Shown piece by piece: positions 8,736 through 59,175 of a stretch of DNA of 64,000 bases. The notes below the pieces were generated by a model. That model searched no databases and was not told where the DNA came from. It saw nothing but the letters and a program-made list of their open reading frames with translations. The position numbers and the translations under genes are program-made. Position 1 is the stretch's first letter; every line of letters starts with the position of its first letter. Source of the DNA: Fuscovulum ytuae (lineage in GTDB: Bacteria; Pseudomonadota; Alphaproteobacteria; Rhodobacterales; Rhodobacteraceae); contig NZ_CP124535.1 in the NCBI RefSeq assembly GCF_029953595.1, positions 992,001 to 1,056,000 on the forward strand, given 5' to 3'.

Positions 8736-11700
8736 TCAGCTACACCCGCTTGTCCCGCCGCAGGTGTTGCACTTCATGCAGGTCCCGTTGCGCACCAGCG
8801 TGTAGTTGCCGCATTCGCCGCAAGGATCGCCTTCATAGCCCTGCATCTTGGCCTTGGTGCGGGCATCCATGCTGACCGTCCCGGTTCCCAACGCGGTTGA
8901 GGTGCCCACTTCGGGCATCATCGCGCTGATCGCGGCAAGGCCATCGGTCCCGGTCGAAAGGGCCGTTGCCCCCATCCCGCCTTGGAACACCACAAGCTCC
9001 TGTGGCAGGCGCTTGCGCAGATAGCCGGTCGACGAAATCGACTTCAGCAGTTCCACCGATTTCGACGCTGCCGTATCGCTCACCTCACCGAAGTTGCGCT
9101 TACCCTCGTCATCGCCACGGCCAAGGTCGTCAAAGGCCGCGCCCTGCGGTTTCACATGGGCAAGGTCGGTGCGGTCCAGATAACTGATCGCCAGTTCGCG
9201 GAAGATATAGTCAAGGATCGAGGTCGCGTTCTTGATCGAATCGTTCCCCTGCACCATCCCCGCCGGTTCGAACCGCGTGAAGGTGAAGGCTTCCACAAAC
9301 TCTTCCAGCGGCACGCCATATTGCAGGCCCACCGACACCGCGATGGCGAAGTTGTTCATCATCGCCCGGAAGCCCGCACCTTCCTTGTGCATGTCGATGA
9401 AAATCTCGCCCAGACGGCCATCGCCATATTCCCCGGTGCGCAGATAGACCTTGTGGCCCCCCACGATCGCCTTCTGGGTATAGCCCTTCCGGCGTTCCGG
9501 CAGCTTTTCGCGATGCGTGCGGATGATCTCCTTCACCACGATCTTCTCGACGATCTTCTCGGCCAGAACGGCGGCCTTTTCCTGTGCCGACCCGGTGGCG
9601 AGAATTTCTTCGGCCTCTTCGTCATCCTCGACCAGCGCCGCAGCCAGCGGCTGGCTCAGCTTGGACCCGTCACGATAAAGGGCATTTGCCTTGATCCCCA
9701 GCGACCATGACAGTTCATAAGCCGCCAGCGTTTCCGCGATCGTGGCCGAGTTGGGCATGTTGATCGTCTTGGAAATCGCACCCGAGATGAAGGACTGCGC
9801 CGCAGCCATCATGTGGATATGGCTTTCCACCGACAAGAAGCGCTTACCCTTTTTGCCGCAGGGATTGGCGCAATCGAAGACCGGGTAATGCTCCGTCTTC
9901 AGGAAAGGCGCGCCTTCCAGCGTCATCGTCCCGCAGACATGGTCATTCGCCGCTTCGATCTGTGCCTTGGTGAACCCAAGATGGCGCAGCAGATCAAAGG
10001 TCGGATCGGCCAGCTTTTCGGCCGGGATACCCAGCGTGCCCTTGCAGAACTCTTCCCCCAGCGTCCACTGGTTAAAGACAAAGCGGATGTCAAAAGCCGA
10101 AGGCAGAGCGCTTTCGATCTTTTCCAACTCGCGCGGGCCAAAGCCGTGGCCGATCAGCGCTGTGTGGTTGATGCCCGGGCAGTTGCCCAAGGACCCATGG
10201 CCAACGGCATAGGCCACGATTTCGGCGATCTGGGACGAGGAATAGCCCAGCATTTCCAGCGCTGCAGGGACAGACTGGTTGATGATCTTGAAATAACCCC
10301 CCCCTGCCAGCTTCTTGAACTTCACCAGCGCGAAGTCCGGCTCGATCCCCGTCGTGTCGCAATCCATGACAAGGCCGATGGTCCCCGTGGGCGCGATCAC
10401 CGTCGTCTGGGCGTTGCGATAGCCGTGCTTTTCGCCCAGGGCCAGCGCTTCGTCCCAAGCCGATTTCGCAAGGGAAACAAGCGCTTGATCCGGGCAATTC
10501 GCGTGGTCCAGCGCCACCGGGTTGACGTTGACGGCCTCATAACCCGACATCTCGCCATAGGCTGCGCGGCGGTGATTGCGGATCACGCGCAGCATGTGCT
10601 TGGCGTTCCGCTGATAGCCCGGGAAAGCCCCCAGTTCCGCAGCCATTTCGGCCGAGGTGGCATAGGTGATCCCCGTCATCAGCGCGGTCAACGCGCCGCA
10701 CAGTGCGCGGCCCTCGACCGAGTCATAGCCAAGACCCATATTCATCAAAAGGCCGCCGATATTGGCATAGCCAAGGCCCAGCGTGCGGAAGTCATAGGAC
10801 AGTTGGGCAATCTCCTTGGACGGGAACTGCGCCATCATCACCGAAACTTCCAGCGTGACCGTCCAAAGCCGCGTTGCATGCACATAGGCATCCGCGTCAA
10901 ACCGGCCATCCTTGAAGAAAGTCAGCAGGTTCATCGAGGCAAGGTTGCAGGCCGTGTCGTCAAGGAACATGTATTCCGAACAGGGGTTCGACCCCCGGAT
11001 CGGCCCATCCTCCGGGCAGGTGTGCCACGCGTTCACCGTGTCATGGAACTGGATGCCAGGGTCGGCGCAGGCCCATGCGGCATGGCCCACCTGATCCCAA
11101 AGGTCGCGCGCCTTGATGGTCTTCGATACCTTGCCGTCGGTGCGACGGATCAAGGCCCAATCCTCATCATTCTGCACGGCCTTGAGGAAGGCATCCGTCA
11201 CGCGGACCGAGTTGTTCGAATTCTGCCCCGAAACGGTGATGTAAGCCTCGCTATCCCAATCCGTGTCATAGGTCGGGAATTCGATCGAGGTGAAGCCCTG
11301 CCGCGCATATTGCAGAACGCGGTTGGTATAAGTGTCGGGGATCATCGCCTTCTTGGCCGACCGAATCGCCGCCTTCAGCGCGGCGTTCTTTGCCGGATCG
11401 ACTGCATCTTCGGACGACCCGTCCCATTGCCGGATGGCGGCGAAAATTTCGTTCAGCTTCTGCTCATGCGCTTTCGAGCCCGCGACAAGAGAGGCGACCT
11501 TCTGCTCTTCAATCACCTTCCAGTTGATGAACTGCTCGATATCCGGGTGATCCATGTCGCAGATCACCATCTTCGCCGCGCGGCGCGTCGTGCCGCCCGA
11601 TTTGATCGCCCCCGCCGCGCGGTCACCGATCTTCAGGAAGCCCATCAGGCCAGACGACTTGCCGCCGCCCGACAGTTTCTCCCCCTCGCCCCGCAGGGAT

Positions 11701-36195: not shown

Positions 36196-36984
36196 TTAAT
36201 GCGCGGCGGCGACCGCGCGCTTGGTCAGCACTTTCACAAGGTTCGCCCGATAGGCGGGCGTGCCGTGCAGGTCGCCGATCATGTCATCCGAGGACACGGT
36301 CAGCCCCTCCACTGCCGAAGCCGCGAAGTTGGCCGAAAGCGCCTTTTCGGCATCAGACCAACGGAAGACGCCGTTGTTTGACGCCCCCGTCACGGCCACG
36401 CGCACCCCATCCGCGAATTTCGCCACAAAGACCCCGGTCAGGGCAAAGCGGCTGGCAGGCTGGTTGAACTTCACATAGGCGGCTTTCTGCGGCACCGGGA
36501 AGGTGACACCGGTCACGATCTCGCCTTCCTCCAGCGCCGTGGTGAACATGCCTTGGAAGTAGTCATCAGCGGCGATCTTGCGGCGGTTCGTCACCACCGT
36601 TGCGCCCGATCCCAGCACTCCTGCCGGATAGCAGGCCGCCGGGTCGTTATTGGCGATGGACCCGCCGATGGTGCCACGATTGCGGACCGCCGGATCGCCA
36701 ATCCCCCCCGCCAGCGCGGCCAGCGCCGGATAATGGGCGGCGGCCTCCTTGGCGACGGTCGCATGGGTGGTGGCCGCCCCGATCGACAGGCCATCAGACC
36801 CCATGCAGACGCCCTGCATCTCGGCAATCCCGGTGAGGGACACGAGAACAGAGGGCGCTGCCAGCCGCTGCTTCAGCGTGGGGGTCAGGGTCTGCCCACC
36901 GGAAAGGGCCTGCGCCCCATCCGACGACAGCGCCTTGACCGCTTCGGCAATGCTGGAAGGTTTCACGAAATCAAAGTTATGCAT
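36196..36984 (-). CDS. coxM: aerobic CO dehydrogenase-type medium subunit (FAD-binding)
   Basis: A 262-residue FAD subunit of a molybdenum hydroxylase of the xanthine dehydrogenase family. LSGGQTLTPTLKQRL and the second FAD loop RNRGTIGGSIANNDPAACYPA are intact, followed by a CODH-type C-terminal domain. It passes electrons from the Fe-S subunit to the acceptor. Last gene of coxG-S-L-M, 13 bp after coxL. Confidence 0.92.
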   Translation of the reverse strand: MHNFDFVKPSSIAEAVKALSSDGAQALSGGQTLTPTLKQRLAAPSVLVSLTGIAEMQGVCMGSDGLSIGAATTHATVAKEAAAHYPALAALAGGIGDPAVRNRGTIGGSIANNDPAACYPAGVLGSGATVVTNRRKIAADDYFQGMFTTALEEGEIVTGVTFPVPQKAAYVKFNQPASRFALTGVFVAKFADGVRVAVTGASNNGVFRWSDAEKALSANFAASAVEGLTVSSDDMIGDLHGTPAYRANLVKVLTKRAVAAAH

Positions 36985-36997
36985 GGTCCAACCCCCC

Positions 36998-39376
36998 TCA
37001 GCCGTTGATCGCCGCCCAGACTCGCGACGGCGAGACGGGCATGTCGATATGTTTCACATGCGTATGGCCGCCGCGATGAAGCGCGTCGATCACCGCATTG
37101 ACCACCGCCGGGGGCGACCCGATGGCCCCGGCCTCGCCGCAGCCCTTCACCCCGAGGGGGTTATGGGTGCAGGGCGTGACGCAGGAATGGTCCACCGTAT
37201 AGAAGGGCACGTCATCGGCGCGCGGCATGGCGTAATCCATATAGGACGCCGTCAAGAGCTGGCCGTTTTCGTCATAGGACGTGTTTTCCAAGAGGGCCTG
37301 ACCGATCCCCTGCCCCACGCCGCCATGCACCTGCCCCTCGACGATCATCGGGTTCATCACATGGCCAAAGTCATCGGCGCAGGTGAAGGACGCGATATCA
37401 ACCTTGCCGGTTTCGGGGTCCACCTCCACCTCGCAAAGATAGGCACCTGCGGGATAGGTGAAGTTTGCCGGATCGTAGAAGGCCGTTTCTTCCAGCCCCG
37501 GTTCCAGCGTTTCCAGCGGGTAGTTGTGCGGGACGTAAGCCGAGAAGGCAATCTCGCCGAAGCTTTTCGCCTTGTCGGTGCCTGCGACACTGAACTTGCC
37601 ATCGGCAAAGACAATGTCGTTCTCGGACGCTTCCAGCATATGGGCCGCAATCTTCTTGCCCTTGGCGATGATCTTGTCCACCGCCTTGGTCATCGCCGCG
37701 CCGCAGACCGCCAGAGAGCGGGACCCGTATGACCCCATGCCGAAGGGAATCTTCGACGTGTCGCCATGCACGATCTCGATCGAGCTTTCCGGGATGCCCA
37801 GCTTTTCGGCCACGATCTGGGCAAAGACCGTCTCATGGCCCTGCCCGTGGCTATGCGCCCCGGTCATCACGCTGATATTGCCGGTGGCGTTCACCCGCAC
37901 GGTTGCGGCGTCATAAAGGCCGACGCGCGACCCAAGCACGCCCACAAGGTTCGACGGCGCGATGCCGCAAGCCTCGATCCAGGTCGAAAGGCCCATGCCG
38001 CGCAGCTTGCCCTTTGCCTTGGACGCCGCTGCCCGCTTGTCGAAGCCGGCTACGTCTGCCAGTTCGATCAGCTTGTCCAACGTCGCCTGATAGTTGCCCG
38101 TGTCATAGACCAGCCCGACCGGGGTGGTGTAGGGGAACTGATCCGGCTGGATCAGGTTCTTGCGGCGCACCTCGAACGGATCAAGGTTCAGCTCGCGGCA
38201 CATCTTATCGACGATACGTTCGATCGAGAACGTGGCCTCGGGCCGACCCGCGCCGCGATAGGCATCGACGGGGGCGGTATTGGTGAAGACCGTTTTCACG
38301 TTCACATAGACATGCGGCACCTTATAGGGGCCCGCCATCAGCGTGCCATGCAGGAAGGTCGGCGTCGCGGTGGAGAAGTTCGAAAGGTAAGCCCCCACAT
38401 TGGCCAGCGTTTCCGTGCGGATCGCAAGAATCTCACCATCCTTGGTCGATGCCATCTCGATCTTCGTCACATGGTCGCGGCCATGCGCATCGGTGAGGAA
38501 GCTTTCCGTCCGCTCTGCCGTCCAGCGCACCGGACGGCCCAGCTTGCGTGCCGCCGCCAGAACCAGCGCCTCTTCGCCATAGTGATAGATCTTCGACCCG
38601 AAGCCGCCGCCCACATCAGGGGCCACGACCGTCAGCTTGTTTTCCGGGATGCCCAGAACGAAGGCCGCCACCAGAAGCCGCGTCAGGTGCGGGTTCTGCG
38701 AGGTGGTGGTCAGCTTGTAGTCGCCCGTGCCGGGGAAATATTCCCCGATGCTGGCGCGCGGTTCCATCGCGTTCGGCACCAGACGGTTGTTCACCAGTTC
38801 CAGCGTGGTGATGTGGGGCGCGTTCTTGAACGCCTCATCCACCGCCGCGCGGTTATCCTCGATCCAGCCCCAGTCGAAGCAGAGGTTGTCGGGGATCTCG
38901 TCATGCACGCGGTTCGACGCATCGGCCACGGCCTTCTTCATGTCGACGATGGCGGGCAGTTCCTCGATCTCGCTATCATCGGCCAGTTGCTGGGCCGCGT
39001 CCTTGGCCTGATTGTAGGTTTCCGCGATCACGGCGGCATAGGCGTCGCCCACATGGCGGACTTTGCCATGGGCCAGCACCGGGCGCTTGGGTTCGCGCAT
39101 CGGCGTGCCATCGCGGCTGTTGATCAGCCAGCCCGCCGGGTTGCCGCCCACATCCTTGAAATCCTCGCCCGTGAAGATGGCCAGCACGCCGGGCATCGCG
39201 GCGGCATTGGCCGTGTTGATCGACTTGATCCGCCCATGCGCGACGTTCGACCGTACGAAGACCGCATAGGTCTGCGCGGCAATCGCCATGTCATCGGTAT
39301 AGACCCCGCGCCCCGACAGAAAGCGCACGTCCTCGCGCCGCTTGCTGCTGGCGCCGATCCCTGTGTCCTTCGGCAT
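36998..39376 (-). CDS. coxL: form II CO dehydrogenase-like molybdenum hydroxylase large subunit
   Basis: A 792-residue molybdopterin subunit. The active-site loop reads AYRGAGR (Ala372-Arg378), the form II signature, not the AYRCSFR of true (form I) Mo-Cu CO dehydrogenase, so the copper-binding cysteine is missing. Other cofactor regions (VVAPDVGGGFGSK, MTGAHSHGQGHETVFAQ, GMGSYGSRSL, GVKGCGEAGAIGSPPAVVNAV) are present. Form II enzymes may oxidise CO weakly or act on other substrates; the name only marks homology. GGGAGGA precedes the ATG, 24 bp after coxS. Confidence 0.93.
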   Translation of the reverse strand: MPKDTGIGASSKRREDVRFLSGRGVYTDDMAIAAQTYAVFVRSNVAHGRIKSINTANAAAMPGVLAIFTGEDFKDVGGNPAGWLINSRDGTPMREPKRPVLAHGKVRHVGDAYAAVIAETYNQAKDAAQQLADDSEIEELPAIVDMKKAVADASNRVHDEIPDNLCFDWGWIEDNRAAVDEAFKNAPHITTLELVNNRLVPNAMEPRASIGEYFPGTGDYKLTTTSQNPHLTRLLVAAFVLGIPENKLTVVAPDVGGGFGSKIYHYGEEALVLAAARKLGRPVRWTAERTESFLTDAHGRDHVTKIEMASTKDGEILAIRTETLANVGAYLSNFSTATPTFLHGTLMAGPYKVPHVYVNVKTVFTNTAPVDAYRGAGRPEATFSIERIVDKMCRELNLDPFEVRRKNLIQPDQFPYTTPVGLVYDTGNYQATLDKLIELADVAGFDKRAAASKAKGKLRGMGLSTWIEACGIAPSNLVGVLGSRVGLYDAATVRVNATGNISVMTGAHSHGQGHETVFAQIVAEKLGIPESSIEIVHGDTSKIPFGMGSYGSRSLAVCGAAMTKAVDKIIAKGKKIAAHMLEASENDIVFADGKFSVAGTDKAKSFGEIAFSAYVPHNYPLETLEPGLEETAFYDPANFTYPAGAYLCEVEVDPETGKVDIASFTCADDFGHVMNPMIVEGQVHGGVGQGIGQALLENTSYDENGQLLTASYMDYAMPRADDVPFYTVDHSCVTPCTHNPLGVKGCGEAGAIGSPPAVVNAVIDALHRGGHTHVKHIDMPVSPSRVWAAING

Positions 39377-39400: not shown

Positions 39401-39886
39401 TTATTCGGCGGCCTGCGCAGCTGCATCCTGCCCGGATGCGGCCAGCACCGCCTTGACGATGTTATGATAGCCCGTGCAGCGGCAGATATTCCCCTCAAGG
39501 TAATGCCGGATCTCGGCCTCGGACGGCTTGGGGTTGTCGGCCAGAAGCGCGGCGGAAGACATCACCATGCCGGGCGTGCAGAAGCCGCATTGCAGGCCGT
39601 GATGGTCTTGGAACGCCTGCTGGATCACCGATAGCGACCCATCGGGATTGTTCATCCCCTCGATCGTCTTGACGCTTGCGCCCGCCACATCGGCGGCAAA
39701 GGTGGTGCAGGATTTCACCGCCTTGCCATCCACATGCACCACGCAGGCGCCACATTGGCTGGTGTCGCAGCCGACATGCGTGCCGGTCAGCCCCAACCCC
39801 TCGCGCAGGAAGGTGGACAGAAGCGTGCGCCCCTCCACCTCGCCCGAGACGGTCTTGCCGTTCACCGTCATCGTGACTTTCGTCAT
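39401..39886 (-). CDS. coxS: CO dehydrogenase-type small subunit (2 x [2Fe-2S])
   Basis: A 161-residue iron-sulfur subunit. The plant-type cluster uses Cys40, Cys45, Cys48 and Cys60; the second cluster uses Cys100, Cys103, Cys135 and Cys137 ([17 protein letters not shown]). It links the molybdenum site on CoxL to FAD on CoxM. GGGAGGA lies before the ATG. A C-terminal Ala/Gln-rich tail is slightly longer than usual. Confidence 0.94.
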
Positions 39887-40451: not shown

Positions 40452-40534
40452 GTTGGTCACCTCACTTGTCCGGAAGATTAAGCGGCCCTTGCGCCGCCCG
40501 ATATGGAACATTGGTCGTAGGCGCAGGGTTCAGG

Positions 40535-42739
40535 CTATCCCGCCTGCGGCAATCCCGCGATGAAAGATTCGAGAGCGCGGGCATCCAGCGGCTTCATCAT
40601 CAAGCCCACCCCCGCCGCCGCGCAATGGGCGCGCAATTCGGGGCGGTGGTCGGCGGTGACGATCCGCGCAGGCACCGCGCCATGCCGCGCCTGAACCATG
40701 GACAGGAATTTCACCCCGTCCATCCCCGCCCCTAGATTGAAATCGACGATAAAGCAGTCGGGCAGGATGCCCAGTTCTTCGATCAATTCCAGCGCCTCTT
40801 CACCCGAGGCGGCATCAAGGACGCTGACACCCCATTTCTCAAGCAAAAGCGCCATCGCGCGGCGCAGATCGCCGTCGTTTTCCACCAAAAAGACGATGCG
40901 ATTCTGCATCGACGGGCGGGGGCTTGGCGCGGGGCGCGGTCCTTCGGGATGCGCCACCCCATCGGCCAAAGGCACCTGCACCATGAAACAGGTGCCCCGC
41001 CCGATCTCTGACGACAGGCCAAGGGGATGGCCCAAAAGGGCGCAGGCCCGCTCCACGATGGCAAGGCCAAGCCCCATCCCTTCGCTGGCCGAAGCGCGGG
41101 CATTCAGGCGGTGGAATTCCTTGAAGATGTTGTCCTGTTCGGTTTCGGGTATCCCCGGCCCCGTGTCGCGCACCTCGATCCGAACCATGCCACCACGGCG
41201 CCGCACGCCCACCAGAATGCGCCCCCGGTCGGTATAGCGGATGGCATTGCCGATCAGGTTTTGCAGGATGCGCCGCAGATAGGCCGCATCCGACGTGACT
41301 GTCACCCGCGACGGCACCACCGACAGCCGCAACCCCTTGGCCGCCGCAATGGCCCCGAATTCGTCGTGGAACTGTTCCAAAAGCCGTTCCAGCCGCACAG
41401 GCCCCACCGATACCGCCGCCCGCCCGCTTTCAAGTTTCGAGATATCCAGAAGCGCGCCCAAAATCCCTTCCACCGACAAAAGCGCGTTCTGCGCCTTGTC
41501 CAGCGCGGCCCGGGTCTCGGCCCCCAGCCCCTCTTCAGGAACGGATGAGATGAAAAGTTTCGCCGCGCTCAGCGGCTGCAACAGGTCATGGCTGGCCGCC
41601 GCCACGAAACGTGACCTGCTGGCATTGGCGCGTTCGGCATGCGCCAGCGCATCCTCCAGTTCCAGCGTGCGTTCCATCACCCGCGCCTCAAGCGTTTCAT
41701 TGGCGCGGCTCAGCGCCTCGATTGCCGCGCGCTCGGCGGTGACATCGGTGAAAGACATCACGAAACCGCCATTGGGCATGCCTTGGGCAAAGACATCCAT
41801 GATCATGTCCGGCCCGCGCCGCAACTCAAAGCGGATCGCCCCCCGCCCCTCGCGCCCCGCGACCCAATCGCCCAGCCGCGCCTCGGTGATGCCTTCGCCA
41901 AAGGTCAGGTCGGTGCGGAAACGGTCAAGGATGGCGTCGAAACTCACACCCATGCGGAACCGCGCCATGGGGACGGTCAAAAGCTGGCCCAGACGCTGAT
42001 TCCACCCCACCAGCCGCGCCTCGGCATCAAAGATGCAGACACCTTGGCTGATATGGTCCAGCGTGGCGCGGATCACGCGGGCCTGATCGTCCAGCATCTT
42101 GCCGCGTTCCGACCGTTCCAGACGGATGATCTCGGTCACATCGGTTTGCAGGATCACCGTCCCGCCATCTGCGGTGCGGTGTTCGCTGACCTGAACCCAA
42201 CGGTCCCAGACCATGCGGACGTTAAAGATCACATGCCGGTCCTGGTGGCGACGACGGCGCGCGACGGCCCAATCCTCGGCGCTTTCCCCCGGCGGCAGTT
42301 CCAAAAAGCGCGACTGGCTGACCCGTTCGATATAATCGCCAAAGCGCAGCCCTGGCTTCAGATGTTCCCGCAGGTCAAGCATGTGCATCCCGAACCGGGA
42401 ATTGCACATCACCAGCACATCCTGCGCATCGAAAAGGGCGAATCCCTCCTGAATCGTCTCGATCGCATTTGCAAGGTTCTGCCGCGCGGCTTCGGTGGCG
42501 CGGTTCGCCTCGGCCAGCCTTGCATTGCTGTCATTCAAAAGGTCCAGCGCGCGTTCCAGATCGCGGGTGCGTTCGCGCACCTGATCCTCCAGCATCGCCG
42601 CGCGCTGGAATTGCGCATAGGCCGCGCCGCTGTCATCGGTGATCTGTTCCACCCGGCGCATCAAGACCTGCGCGATGGCCAGCAGCTTTTCGGTTTGCCG
42701 TTCAGGCGGATCGGCGGGGTTGATCAGCGTCTCGATCAT
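40535..42739 (-). CDS. PAS-domain hybrid sensor histidine kinase/response regulator (NahK/ErcS'-like)
   Basis: A 734-residue soluble kinase without membrane segments. In order: a helical coiled coil (about 40-95), PAS domain with NAIETIQEGFALFD (91-210), second PAS with ATLDHISQGVCIFD (225-335), HisKA with phospho-acceptor His384 in AASHDLLQPL, HATPase_c (NLIGNAIRY, DTGPGIPE, GMGLGLAIV), then a C-terminal receiver (from about 610, Asp in CFIVDFNL). The HDLLQPL type, double PAS and FIST partner match NahK/ErcS' kinases. Overlaps the FIST gene by 4 bp. Confidence 0.92.
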   Translation of the reverse strand: MIETLINPADPPERQTEKLLAIAQVLMRRVEQITDDSGAAYAQFQRAAMLEDQVRERTRDLERALDLLNDSNARLAEANRATEAARQNLANAIETIQEGFALFDAQDVLVMCNSRFGMHMLDLREHLKPGLRFGDYIERVSQSRFLELPPGESAEDWAVARRRRHQDRHVIFNVRMVWDRWVQVSEHRTADGGTVILQTDVTEIIRLERSERGKMLDDQARVIRATLDHISQGVCIFDAEARLVGWNQRLGQLLTVPMARFRMGVSFDAILDRFRTDLTFGEGITEARLGDWVAGREGRGAIRFELRRGPDMIMDVFAQGMPNGGFVMSFTDVTAERAAIEALSRANETLEARVMERTLELEDALAHAERANASRSRFVAAASHDLLQPLSAAKLFISSVPEEGLGAETRAALDKAQNALLSVEGILGALLDISKLESGRAAVSVGPVRLERLLEQFHDEFGAIAAAKGLRLSVVPSRVTVTSDAAYLRRILQNLIGNAIRYTDRGRILVGVRRRGGMVRIEVRDTGPGIPETEQDNIFKEFHRLNARASASEGMGLGLAIVERACALLGHPLGLSSEIGRGTCFMVQVPLADGVAHPEGPRPAPSPRPSMQNRIVFLVENDGDLRRAMALLLEKWGVSVLDAASGEEALELIEELGILPDCFIVDFNLGAGMDGVKFLSMVQARHGAVPARIVTADHRPELRAHCAAAGVGLMMKPLDARALESFIAGLPQAG

Positions 42740-43926
42740 TCCGCCGCCTCGGCGGCCCTATCGTCAGGCGGATAGATGGCCACCCCTGTCATCGTCTGGT
42801 TCACATGCAGCGCATTGAACTGTTCACCATAGGTGGAAAAACCCACCACCCGGTTTTCACGCAGGATGGCCGACACGGCCCCCGACTTCTGTTTCTCCTG
42901 CGCCTCCATCCGGCGCAGGATGCAATCGCAGGCAAGGATGGCCACAGGCGCGCCCTCGGCGGCCAGTTCGGCCATGCGGCCCGCCAGATGGGTCACCATG
43001 TCCTGCGGATCGGCCAGCGTCAGCACAACGCCTTCGTCGATGGCGGAAAAGAAGATCAGATCGCCGCCCTCTGCCACCTCGCGGATCGCGCGCACATGGT
43101 GCTTGCCCCCGACACGCACGACCACGGGATGGGCTGCAAAGGTAAAGGTGGTCAGCTGCGCGGGGTCTTTGCCCAGAAGCCGCGCATATTCCTGTGCAGC
43201 AGGTTCGGCATTGATCTTATGGACGATGCGTCGCGCCGGATCGGCCCCGGTCACCACCATGCGCGCTTCGGTTGGCGTCAGATGGTCAAGGCTGAAGACC
43301 TTCACCCGGCAATCGGTCCGCACCAAGGCCAAGACGGCGGCATTTTGCAAGGCATGGCCTTCGTGCAGAACGAAGGTCGCGCGAAACCGCGTCCCATCCC
43401 CCGCCGATCCCCCGAAAAGGGGCACCGGCCCCAGCCCCGATGCCAGCGCCCCGGCAAGCTCGTCCTCGCGCACCGACAGGCCATCGACAAGAAGGAAGGC
43501 GAACTCCCCCTCCCAATCGGGATGCGCACGGGACAGCGATTGCCGCGACCGGATCAATTGCCCGATCAGCCCCTCCCGCTCCATCGCCGAAAGGTCGGGA
43601 ATCAACAGCAGGTCCGCCGCGAAATGCGATGCAGGCAGGCCCACGGCGACGATCTCGCCCTCGGTATAGCCCGCCCCGGAAATCTCGCCCGCCGTGGAAC
43701 AGCCGACGACACGCGCCCCCCCGAACCGCCCCGGCAGGCGCAGCGCCAGCGCATCCAGATCGGCATCCGGCGACACGAACAGAATGACAAGGGCGAAAGG
43801 CCCCGGCCCCAGCGCCTCTTCCAATTGACGCAGCGGATGCGGCACGTCCACCGGCACAGACGCCCGCGCGACCAGTGCCAGCCCCGCGTCCTGCGACGCA
43901 GAAAATGCCTCCCTCCGCTGGTTCAT
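42736..43926 (-). CDS. FIST domain sensor protein (NosP-like)
   Basis: A 396-residue cytoplasmic protein with FIST_N (ALVILFVSPDADLDAL, VVGCSTAGEISGAGYTEGEIVAVGL, LFGGSAGDGTRF) and FIST_C (HPVVVRVGGKHHVRAIREV, AILACDCILRRM, VVGFSTYGEQF). FIST proteins bind small ligands; the NosP branch binds haem and nitric oxide and inhibits a co-encoded NahK-type kinase. The overlap with such a kinase makes this role likely. The ATG at 43926 has GGGAGGA upstream and replaces a longer frame from 43971. Confidence 0.88.
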   Translation of the reverse strand: MNQRREAFSASQDAGLALVARASVPVDVPHPLRQLEEALGPGPFALVILFVSPDADLDALALRLPGRFGGARVVGCSTAGEISGAGYTEGEIVAVGLPASHFAADLLLIPDLSAMEREGLIGQLIRSRQSLSRAHPDWEGEFAFLLVDGLSVREDELAGALASGLGPVPLFGGSAGDGTRFRATFVLHEGHALQNAAVLALVRTDCRVKVFSLDHLTPTEARMVVTGADPARRIVHKINAEPAAQEYARLLGKDPAQLTTFTFAAHPVVVRVGGKHHVRAIREVAEGGDLIFFSAIDEGVVLTLADPQDMVTHLAGRMAELAAEGAPVAILACDCILRRMEAQEKQKSGAVSAILRENRVVGFSTYGEQFNALHVNQTMTGVAIYPPDDRAAEAAE

Positions 43927-44078
43927 CGCGTCCTCCCAAACGCGCCGTCCTGCGGAAAGGCTACAATTCACCCCCCCGCCCCCGCAAGCCCCGGATTGTC
44001 AGGACATCACCAAGCATGGCACCCAGCCCAGAACGCCGCCCCTTACAGAACAGCGGGCCTTTTGCGGAACGGACCGCC

Positions 44079-44762
44079 CTACCCGTTTTCGGGCATCAAA
44101 CGATCGAAACTCGCCTCTTGCGCAATCAACACGGCCTGCGTCCGGCTTTGCACGCCCAGCTTGCGCATGATCGCCGTCACATGCGCCTTCACCGTGGTCT
44201 CGGCGATGGTCAACTCATAGGCGATCTGCTTGTTCAGCATCCCCTCGCAGATCAGTTGCAAGATCTTCGCCTGCTGCCGCGTCAAAAGGGAAAGCCGCGA
44301 AATGGCCTCCTCACGCTGGCTTGCAGGTGCATTGGGATCGGCCTGCGGCACAAACCCTTCGGGCACAAACCCCTCACCCGCGCGAATGGCATCGAAGGCC
44401 GCCTTGAACACCTCGCGCCGCGAATGTTTGGGAACAAAGCCCACGGCACCGGCCCGCAGCGCCGCGCCGATCACTCGATTGTCGGCCAAGGAGGACACCA
44501 CCACCACCGGCACATCCCCCGCCGTGGCGCGCAGCCGGATCAACCCATCCAGCCCGTTCACATCCGGCAGGTTCAGATCCAGCACCACCACATCCGGCAA
44601 AGGCGAAATCTCCAGCCGCGCCAGCGCCGTTTCCAGCCTGTCCGCCGTCTCGATCCCCTCGATCCCTGCCACTGCGCGCAATGTCATCGACAGGGCGTCG
44701 CAGAACAGCGGATGGTCATCCACGATCAAGGCCGTGGCAAGCCTGCGCTGCGATCCGTCCAT
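44079..44762 (-). CDS. NarL/LuxR family response regulator
   Basis: A 227-residue two-component regulator: receiver with acidic pair DD (15-16), phospho-acceptor Asp62 (VVVLDLNLPD) and conserved Lys (FVPKH), then a LuxR-type HTH (LTRQQAKILQLICEGMLNKQIAYELTIAETTVKAHVTAIMRKLGV). It is upstream of the FIST and kinase genes on the same strand, 152 bp away, and is the natural output partner of the hybrid kinase. AGGAGG precedes the ATG at 44762. Targets unknown. Confidence 0.92.
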   Translation of the reverse strand: MDGSQRRLATALIVDDHPLFCDALSMTLRAVAGIEGIETADRLETALARLEISPLPDVVVLDLNLPDVNGLDGLIRLRATAGDVPVVVVSSLADNRVIGAALRAGAVGFVPKHSRREVFKAAFDAIRAGEGFVPEGFVPQADPNAPASQREEAISRLSLLTRQQAKILQLICEGMLNKQIAYELTIAETTVKAHVTAIMRKLGVQSRTQAVLIAQEASFDRLMPENG

Positions 44763-44943
44763 CGGAACCTCCTGTCCCACATGATGCAGGCTAACAGCGC
44801 ATGCGCCCCGCGCCAACTGCGCCAAAGGTCTTAGCCGCCACGCAAAGTTCCGCCCGCGCCCGGCCCCGTCCTGATCCCACCCTTTCCCCCTGCGCCCCCG
44901 CCCGCTATCACCGTGCCAAACCGTGCATTCAGGGGTTGCCACC

Positions 44944-58405: not shown

Positions 58406-58740
58406 GCCGCAACCCTATGCCCCTCGCGCGGCGGGTCAAGGCCATCCACCGGGAAACTCCCGACGAAAGCCCCTTTCAAACCGCTTTAAATGTTACCGCA
58501 AACATTCGCAAGTTTCTTATGCCCATGCAGAATATTTTACCTTTTCCAAACAGTCAAAACGCTTTGAATATAGTATGTACCAACCTAAGCCCCGACCCGA
58601 AATCGAGACAGGGCCAATCCCGCACTTCCCCGCCGGTTCTTTCGCAATCTGATCTGGATCATGTCGCAGAACCTCTGCCCTGCATAAATCTTTGGCGAGA
58701 GAAACCCGCCGCAGCCCGTCGGGAAACCGGAGATCGCCCC
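58406..58740. other. divergent upstream region of glgP and the NsrR-like gene
   Basis: 335 bp, with an AT-rich core at about 58485-58590 that stands out from the GC-rich surroundings and probably contains promoters for both genes. It carries the 14-bp motif at 58491-58504. Some frames run through it into the regulator gene, but the conserved protein starts only at 58741. Confidence 0.6.
58491..58504. promoter_or_regulatory. LacI-type operator-like motif upstream of glgP
   Basis: TGTTACCGCAAACA, 86 bp upstream of the glgP start. It matches the zwf palindrome TGTTAGCGCTAACG at 11 of 14 positions and keeps the TGTT...AACA arms and central CG. The same regulator could bind both; inferred from similarity. 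Confidence 0.45.
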
Positions 58741-59175
58741 ATGAGACTCACCACCCGCACCAACCTCGCCATGCGCACCCTGATGTTCTGTGCCGTCAAC
58801 CCGGAGCGGATCGTCCGCAAGCACGAAGTGGCCGAAGCCTGCGCCGCATCCGAAAACCACCTCGCGCAGGTGATCCATCTCTTGGCGCAGAAAGGTTTCC
58901 TGCGCACGATCCGTGGCAGATCGGGCGGCCTGATGCTGGGCCGCGCCGCCGACAAGATCACCGTGGGCGAGGTTTTTCGCGATTTCGAGGCCGTTCTGCC
59001 CTTCACCGAATGTTTCGCAGGCCATGAAAACAACTGCCCCCTCGCCGGGGCTTGCCGCTTGAAATGTGTGCTGGCCGACGCGCTCAAGGCCTTCTACGCC
59101 GAACTCGACCGCGTCACCGTGGCCGATCTCGTGGCAGGCAATGACGACCTGCAAGCCCTGCTTCACGTCGCCTAA
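58741..59175 (+). CDS. nsrR: Rrf2 family transcriptional regulator (NsrR-like)
   Basis: A 144-residue Rrf2 repressor: winged helix (MRLTTRTNLAMRTLMFCAVN, HEVAEACAASENHLAQVIHLLAQKGFLRTIRGRSGGLMLGR) then a cysteine-rich loop Cys91, Cys99, Cys105 with Cys109 nearby, placed like the [Fe-S] ligands of NsrR. The TECFAG...CPLAGACRLK pattern favours nitric-oxide-sensing NsrR over IscR or RirA. The start at 58741 follows a GGAG site; longer frames extend into the glgP promoter. No denitrification or NO-detoxification gene is adjacent. Followed by a cluster of A/T palindromes. Confidence 0.85.
   Translation: MRLTTRTNLAMRTLMFCAVNPERIVRKHEVAEACAASENHLAQVIHLLAQKGFLRTIRGRSGGLMLGRAADKITVGEVFRDFEAVLPFTECFAGHENNCPLAGACRLKCVLADALKAFYAELDRVTVADLVAGNDDLQALLHVA

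Follow-up and report, generated by a model that had tools for sequence, protein, structure and literature searches.

A regulator, FIST protein and hybrid kinase unit beside a form II molybdenum hydroxylase operon in Fuscovulum ytuae: a probable GfdRTS-type circuit for alcohol and aldehyde oxidation

Introduction

Which genes does a unit of a LuxR-type regulator, a FIST protein and a soluble hybrid histidine kinase control, and what does it perceive, when it lies directly beside an operon for a molybdenum hydroxylase? The question is raised by positions 40535-44762 of a 64,000-nt stretch of the Fuscovulum ytuae genome (NZ_CP124535.1, positions 992,001 to 1,056,000), hereafter the window. A sequence-only reading of the locus had proposed a nitric oxide (NO) or small-ligand circuit of the NosP/NahK type and regarded the alphaproteobacterial output genes as unknown. 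The analysis described here confirmed the observation behind that proposal and partly supported its interpretation. We consider it probable that the locus is a GfdRTS unit (of the AfdRTS/RfdRTS/FlhRS type), which activates itself, the adjacent coxGSLM genes and a xoxF-like pyrroloquinoline quinone (PQQ) dehydrogenase, with alcohol and aldehyde oxidation as its output.

In the mechanism that we propose, the FIST protein would bind a small ligand and set the activity of the hybrid kinase, which would feed phosphate to the NarL-type regulator either directly or via Hpt. The regulator would bind a 7-2-7 palindrome just upstream of the -35 element, and activate its own operon and the adjacent coxGSLM operon, which encodes a form II molybdenum hydroxylase. 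At another place in the genome, it would also switch on the PQQ dehydrogenase with its cytochrome c. Given these targets, the unit would serve to oxidise an alcohol, its aldehyde or both; the substrate of the molybdenum hydroxylase and the ligand of the FIST protein are inferred. The parts of the circuit are ordinary. The new elements, absent from the open-licence literature searched, are the link to a form II molybdenum hydroxylase through a common operator and a possible aldehyde-sensing cysteine.

Results and Discussion

A conserved three-gene unit

All three genes are encoded on the minus strand. The regulator gene (44079..44762) encodes a NarL/LuxR-family response regulator resembling GfdR, FlhR and ErdR (Pfam Response_reg and GerE), and is followed by genes for a FIST protein resembling GfdT and NosP (42736..43926; FIST_N and FIST_C; AlphaFold2 model with a pLDDT of 91.7) and for a soluble hybrid histidine kinase resembling NahK, ErcS and FlhS (40535..42739; two PAS_7 domains, HisKA, HATPase_c and a C-terminal receiver). 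The open reading frames (ORFs) and Pfam domains agree with what the sequence-only reading had described, namely a one-strand arrangement, a 4-bp overlap of the FIST and kinase ORFs (42736-42739) and a double-PAS kinase with its own receiver. Its placement of the unit directly beside a molybdenum hydroxylase operon also holds, and the regulator that it called NsrR-like, about 14 kb away, exists as an Rrf2-family gene (58738-59175, plus strand).

We compared 135 loci, comprising the window, nine plasmid relatives, 80 loci from named genomes (the top-scoring 80 of at least 590, among which Rhodobacter kunshanensis, R. amnigenus and R. ruber are named relatives near this organism) and 45 genome stretches. 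The FIST gene was found in 134 of them; one locus (L218), in which no FIST ORF was found, was left out. A locus was called close when its FIST protein scored at least 330 bits to that of the window, which gave 110 loci, nine of them duplicates (101 distinct). As the loci were selected by their likeness to the window, the counts below are not population frequencies. The kinase gene directly follows the FIST gene on the same strand in 109 of the 110 close loci (the nine duplicates among them), and of the 107 loci having both partners, 104 have the regulator gene ahead of the FIST gene in the same orientation. The gene order and strand of the unit are not due to chance.

The genome of F. ytuae encodes a single FIST protein and one clear kinase of the unit's family (356 bits, the next best scoring 185), and the regulator has no paralogue closer than 40% identity. 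The FIST protein was present in 11 of 12 same-genus genomes and in none of eight other genomes of the same class searched alongside. Two genomes of the window's family (G266 and G292) each have a pair of FIST units, one adjoining CoxGSLM and the other adjoining gfa and the gene for glutathione (GSH)-dependent formaldehyde dehydrogenase (GSH-FDH). Two FIST genes, one of them close to that of the window, were also found in 3/3 Cereibacter/Luteovulum genomes. One same-genus genome of 1.5 Mb (G003) has neither a FIST protein nor GSH-FDH.

None of the three proteins reached the cut-off of its best NCBIfam model. The regulator scored far below that of ErdR (NF041830; 159.7 bits against 390), the FIST protein below the equivalog cut-off of NosP (NF041558; 380.1 against 450), and the kinase below that of the near-NosP kinase domain model (NF041832, NahK/ErcS, C-terminal; 353.8 against 400) and of the full NahK model (418 against 1500). 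Because of these scores, the NosP/NahK reading is only partly right. For scale, the NosP model was over its cut-off in 23 of 299 Pseudomonadota genomes and had any match in 109, and NF041832 was over its cut-off in 0/14 genus genomes.

The output of such units is not as obscure as the sequence-only reading supposed, as the order of regulator, T protein and kinase is that of afdR-afdT-afdS and rfdR-rfdT-rfdS of R. sphaeroides and flhR-orf2-flhS of Paracoccus denitrificans, in which the T protein has an unclear role (PMC4776306; the papers cited by such identifiers are used here in excerpt). These systems control genes for formaldehyde and methanol oxidation (PMC4776306, PMC8879981). AfdRS activates adhI, the gene for GSH-FDH, while RfdRS is thought to repress it (PMC4776306); the targets activated by FlhRS are flhA and fghA, and the mxa and mau promoters are likewise bound by FlhR (PMC8879981).

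Upstream of the unit, the window carries an unbroken ORF for an MttB-family trimethylamine methyltransferase (PF06253; 45399-46937), which recurs in many loci of the genus and is a possible source of C1 units.

Repeated linkage to CoxGSLM

In the window, the unit is directly followed on the same strand by coxG (CoxG/PF06240; 39930..40451, its start set by alignment), coxS for the 2Fe-2S subunit (39401..39886), coxL for the large subunit (36998..39376) and coxM for the FAD subunit (36196..36984), all assigned by Pfam. CoxGSLM is linked to the unit in 44 of the 110 close loci, 30 times downstream and codirectional and 14 times divergent (27 and 14 of the 101 without duplicates). The other neighbours are PQQ dehydrogenases (28/110; 27/101), CoxG alone (7/110, some at contig ends; 5/101) and gfa (1/110; 1/101).

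Co-occurrence with cox, which the sequence-only reading had named as a check, was also traced on a FIST tree of 125 rows, a quick tree with long-branch warnings, in which the cox label covers 48 rows and includes CoxG-only loci. The label requires 15 changes on the tree, at least eight of them forced by starred branches, against a shuffled mean of 38.6, and none of 500 shuffles was as low. Among cox loci, the orientation changes twice. In our reading, the several losses or gains and reversals of the link speak for a functional tie more than for simple inheritance. Across Rhodobacterales, the unit has a CoxG-S-L-M form II molybdenum hydroxylase as a recurrent partner, which may face either way, and where this is absent the partner is often a PQQ alcohol dehydrogenase.

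Within the genus, coxL was found in nine of 11 stretches, another breaks off in coxG where its contig ends, and in the last (L028) no cox gene was found although there is space for them. One stretch (L031; G012:C23:1-20000) differs from the others of the genus in that the FIST-kinase-coxGSLM block is inverted relative to the regulator gene and the flanks, which may be a natural inversion or an assembly error. Outside the close clade, two distant FIST proteins from other alphaproteobacterial families (L219 and L222) also adjoin CoxL/CoxM, possibly through a separate origin of the link.

A predicted operator shared by the unit, coxG and PQQ dehydrogenase genes

A 23-bp motif lies upstream of the regulator gene at more than 6 bits in 74 of 90 loci, and exceeds the 99th percentile of shuffled sequences (10.2 bits) in 73 of them, these counts being in-sample. 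Upstream counts exclude loci that lack the regulator and those whose upstream sequence is too short; eight duplicate loci were removed for motif finding, whole-locus scans and upstream score counts, and nine for the FIST tree and the coxG test below. The fullest sites read TACGACC-WW-GGTCGTA, the 7-2-7 palindrome that is also the arrangement of NarL sites. The best site in the window, TAAGACCTTTGGCGCAGTTGGCG (44811..44833, minus strand; 27.7 bits), precedes the regulator gene, and a -10-like TTAGCC (44789..44794) follows 16 nt past it. The predicted coxG operator, TACGACCAATGTTCCATATCGGG (40497..40519, minus strand), lies between the kinase stop codon and the coxG ATG, with a -10-like TTAATC (40475..40480) again 16 nt past it. 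Given this position, coxGSLM should have its own promoter.

Run on whole loci, the matrix built from regulator promoters also marks sites upstream of PQQ dehydrogenase genes (L057, L069, L070, L077 and L079) and before pedF (L014), gfa (L020) and coxG (L031). In L020 (8020 and 8836-10077), a Paroceanicella plasmid, the FIST gene is split from the kinase and regulator genes and lies beside gfa, encoding S-hydroxymethylglutathione synthase, with the operator-like site 95 bp before gfa.

For a clean test on coxG, a matrix was built from 38 sites before the regulator gene, all from loci without cox whose neighbour class was PQQ or none. Its best match falls 42-50 nt before the aligned coxG ATG in 40 of 46 loci, whereas random sequence gave a mean of 2.4 and a maximum of 7 in 200 trials, and the positions hold for both orientations (25/27 codirectional, 12/14 divergent). 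Scores above the shuffled 99th percentile were obtained in 20/47 coxG and 17/27 PQQ dehydrogenase upstream regions, and in none of the control regions upstream of coxS (0/42), coxL (0/41), coxM (0/40) and the FIST gene (0/101). Among the 24 distant (group B) loci, few had any site of at least 13 bits, and none had one at a GSH-FDH or gfa gene. Gene order, linkage and the conserved operator with its positions come directly from the computation; that the regulator binds this operator, and in which direction it acts, we infer.

Elsewhere in the F. ytuae genome, a gene for a xoxF-like PQQ dehydrogenase (83% identical to the Ruegeria query protein) lies about 0.92 Mb from the unit, and predicted operator sites are found about 95 bp before it and about 75 bp before the adjoining cytochrome c gene. 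A first search pattern gave nine matches in the genome, of which the sole exact one and one more are at the xoxF locus and another is at the regulator promoter. A second pattern, composed after the sites had been seen, has three exact matches in 4.19 Mb, of which two belong to the xoxF locus and the third is the coxG site. The unit is not a dedicated regulator of PQQ dehydrogenases in this genus, which retains the unit although a strong match to the enzyme was obtained for F. ytuae alone among 14 genomes; marginal matches (E 1e-4 to 9e-4) occurred in five further genus genomes. A site near C1:617124 (L241), adjoining a gene that is TetR-like by eye, was judged to be a chance match. Also in the xoxF region, a 16.3-bit site overlaps the start of a gene for a 701-aa Fer4_5 protein, followed by ApbE (L233:1832-4811; G000:C1 near 106832), and an ApbE-type gene is likewise near the PQQ cluster of Leisingera (L012).

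The molybdenum hydroxylase as a probable aldehyde oxidase

CoxL of the window reads AYRGAGR and not the form I active-site motif AYRCSFR, and AYRGAGR is found in 45 of 47 CoxL-type ORFs (duplicates included), the remaining two being partial. Together with the CoxS and CoxM subunits, this motif defines a form II enzyme (motif definition from PMC13240472). The solved structures nearest to coxL by sequence are CO dehydrogenase large subunits, CoxL (8uem) and CutL (1ffu), followed by quinoline oxidoreductase. The "CO dehydrogenase" activity of form II enzymes is described as unresolved, with CO an unlikely substrate (PMC13240472, PMC6794299). Here, the enzyme is most likely an aldehyde oxidase rather than a CO dehydrogenase, since its control would be shared with alcohol dehydrogenases. 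An operator common to a form II enzyme and PQQ alcohol dehydrogenases predicts an aldehyde as substrate and makes the function of form II enzymes testable.

What the FIST protein may sense

We take the window's FIST protein to be the T protein of such units, and GfdT and NosP to be two names within one family, because PP_2663, a nosP homologue in the ped alcohol cluster of Pseudomonas, is listed as "GfdT, nitric oxide-sensing protein" (PMC12997753) and a plasmid relative of the window's protein (L017) is annotated GfdT. Cys76, Cys335, Tyr366, Glu368 and His374 are near-universal in FIST proteins. The distinct proteins compared numbered 148 (106 close and 12 distant ones, with 23 NosP scoring over the cut-off and seven under it): Cys76 occurs in every one and Cys335 in 147, with a gap at this position in the remaining one; in a comparison set of 29 generic FIST proteins, Cys335, Arg338 and His374 are kept in 29/29 and Cys76 in 27/29.

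When the FIST model was re-aligned to Foldseek candidates, the best match was human FBXO22 (Z 19.7-21.2, rmsd 3.2 A), followed by chorismatase (Z up to 12.3) and cyanuric acid hydrolases (Z about 9-10). The ranking by Foldseek itself was led by chorismatase, and FBXO22 was not among the 50 matches listed. Sequence searches with queries P0002, A1 and A3 gave no match to FBXO22, and the pseudoazurin matches in the sequence search (E 0.4-1.2) were discarded as noise. With the model cut at residue 346, the last residue aligns to residue 337 of FBXO22 in all four FBXO22 entries (Z 11.9-13.4). Placed by this end pair, Cys335 would fall on Cys326 of FBXO22, provided that the last 11 residues are free of gaps. 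A weak point is that the cut model loses the strand ending at Cys335, and its last residues have a pLDDT of 64-76.

Cys326 of human FBXO22 forms hemithioacetals with aldehydes (PMC13316043, PMC11208438). One may therefore speculate, tentatively, that FIST proteins of this family are direct sensors of aldehydes (formaldehyde), in which a reversible hemithioacetal at Cys335 would switch the kinase, NO and haem binding by NosP would be a specialised use, and the molybdenum hydroxylase would be an aldehyde oxidase under aldehyde control. If so, an aldehyde-sensing FIST protein would supply the sensor for AfdRS-type systems, for which a review describes formaldehyde sensing as unknown and conserved cysteines as seemingly lacking (PMC4776306): the T protein, a FIST protein by name and place, would bring a pair of cysteines that hardly vary, one of them in the position of the cysteine by which FBXO22 reacts with aldehydes. 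On the other side, an rfdT mutant left adhI expression unchanged (PMC4776306), which speaks against the aldehyde sensor as well as against a GfdRTS unit as a whole, and NosP proteins bind haem and NO (PMC12570481, PMC11237717).

The last property is the core of a NosP/NahK-type circuit, in which haem-bound FIST protein would sense NO (or haem), inhibit or activate the kinase and act through the LuxR regulator. NosP is the best NCBIfam match of the protein (380 bits), and His215 is kept in 100/106 close and 9/12 distant proteins and in 23/23 and 5/7 of the NosP proteins over and under the cut-off, respectively, but in 0/29 generic ones. This residue marks NosP and GfdT rather than generic FIST proteins and could be a haem ligand, although a published haem ligand of NosP was not found in the literature covered. 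We nevertheless regard a NosP/NahK circuit as unlikely here, as the FIST score falls short of the equivalog threshold, no c-di-GMP enzyme forms the output, the neighbours are alcohol/aldehyde enzymes, and a Cu-nitrite reductase was over the cut-off in 0/14 genus genomes (nirS and norB were not searched). What stands of the earlier interpretation is the single unit, the shared superfamily and His215; the scores are below threshold, and the neighbours and the operator point to alcohol/aldehyde oxidation.

Alternative outputs

Besides the rfdT result, several observations weigh against a GfdRTS unit acting on coxGSLM and xoxF. None of the neighbours sought was found in 30/110 close loci (27/101 without duplicates), some of which lie on short contigs. 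With the clean matrix, the coxG site of the window scores only 10.1 bits, and the 64-kb window holds nine matches of at least 10 bits, including this site and the regulator site (25.1 bits). As such a coxG score is not significant within one genome, the site rests on its conservation and position. In the whole genome, the first pattern showed no excess (nine matches against 16 for the reversed-pattern control), nor did the second with up to one mismatch (13 against 12). The matrix also matches upstream of the kinase gene in 40/102 loci; all 40 matches are inside the FIST gene, 39 of them over codons of the conserved TYGE stretch, and they were set aside as operators, being a codon coincidence. 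Finally, no predicted operator was found near either GSH-FDH gene of the F. ytuae genome (G000:C2:76465-77583, on a 120-kb contig, and G000:C1:2222005-2223129) or in two gfa/GSH-FDH loci (L213 and L216).

The GSH-FDH results bear equally on a second alternative, in which the unit would be an AfdRS/RfdRS-like regulator of GSH-FDH only and the molybdenum hydroxylase a bystander. The enzyme was over the cut-off in 12/14 genus genomes, and the two FIST genes of the 3/3 Cereibacter/Luteovulum genomes recall R. sphaeroides with afd and rfd. Nevertheless, the coxG operator is conserved in both orientations, while GSH-FDH, though present in the genome, has no predicted operator. As a linked output it is disfavoured, there being no operator of at least 15.5 bits in L112-L125, barring one 17.1-bit match in L114 not assigned to a gene, and none of at least 12 bits in L234/L235. 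We therefore think this alternative improbable.

Least probable of all is that the shared motif is the site of another regulator or a promoter feature that does not define the targets of the unit: the matrix is in-sample for regulator-gene promoters and the genome counts do not exceed their controls, but the three exact second-pattern matches fall at the coxG site and the xoxF locus (the pattern being written afterwards), the motif resembles that of CrbR, another LuxR-type regulator, and the closest regulator paralogue is only 40% identical.

Comparison with known systems

Human FBXO22 has the FIST fold in common with the window's protein; it is a ubiquitin ligase without a match at the sequence level. 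The acetate system CrbS/CrbR resembles the window in its LuxR-family regulator, CrbR being kin to ErdR, and, by eye, in an inverted repeat of the TAC(G/T)ACC type that immediately precedes the promoter. For CrbR this repeat is the ACTU motif, with TACTACCATCGTCGAAT as an example; it lies at -52 to -36 before the promoter, and changing four of its bases abolished activation (PMC5715377). The CrbR site at acs and the PQQ dehydrogenase site of L077 have 13 of 17 letters in common. Unlike the window's kinase, CrbS is an SLC5-containing hybrid kinase, and no FIST protein is named with it.

Form II CO dehydrogenases share the CoxGSLM subunits and AYRGAGR with the window; their coupling to a FIST unit was not found in the open-licence literature searched. 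In the NosP-NahK(ErcS')-ErbR/AgmR systems of Pseudomonas (PA1975-PA1976-PA1978; PP_2663-2665, ped), a FIST gene lies beside that of a soluble hybrid kinase, as in the window, and, as in the window's family, genes for a LuxR regulator and for PQQ alcohol dehydrogenases are close by. The window differs in scores below the family cut-offs, in a regulator gene upstream on the same strand and in its molybdenum hydroxylase neighbour.

The closest parallels are AfdRTS, RfdRTS and FlhR-Orf2-FlhS, which share with the window a regulator, T protein and hybrid kinase on one strand and are tied to the control of formaldehyde and methanol genes. This likeness rests on gene order and names, the sequences compared being those of Cereibacter, Luteovulum and Paracoccus relatives. 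Unlike these systems, the unit of F. ytuae has no predicted site at GSH-FDH, and its neighbour is a form II molybdenum hydroxylase for which a separate operator is predicted.

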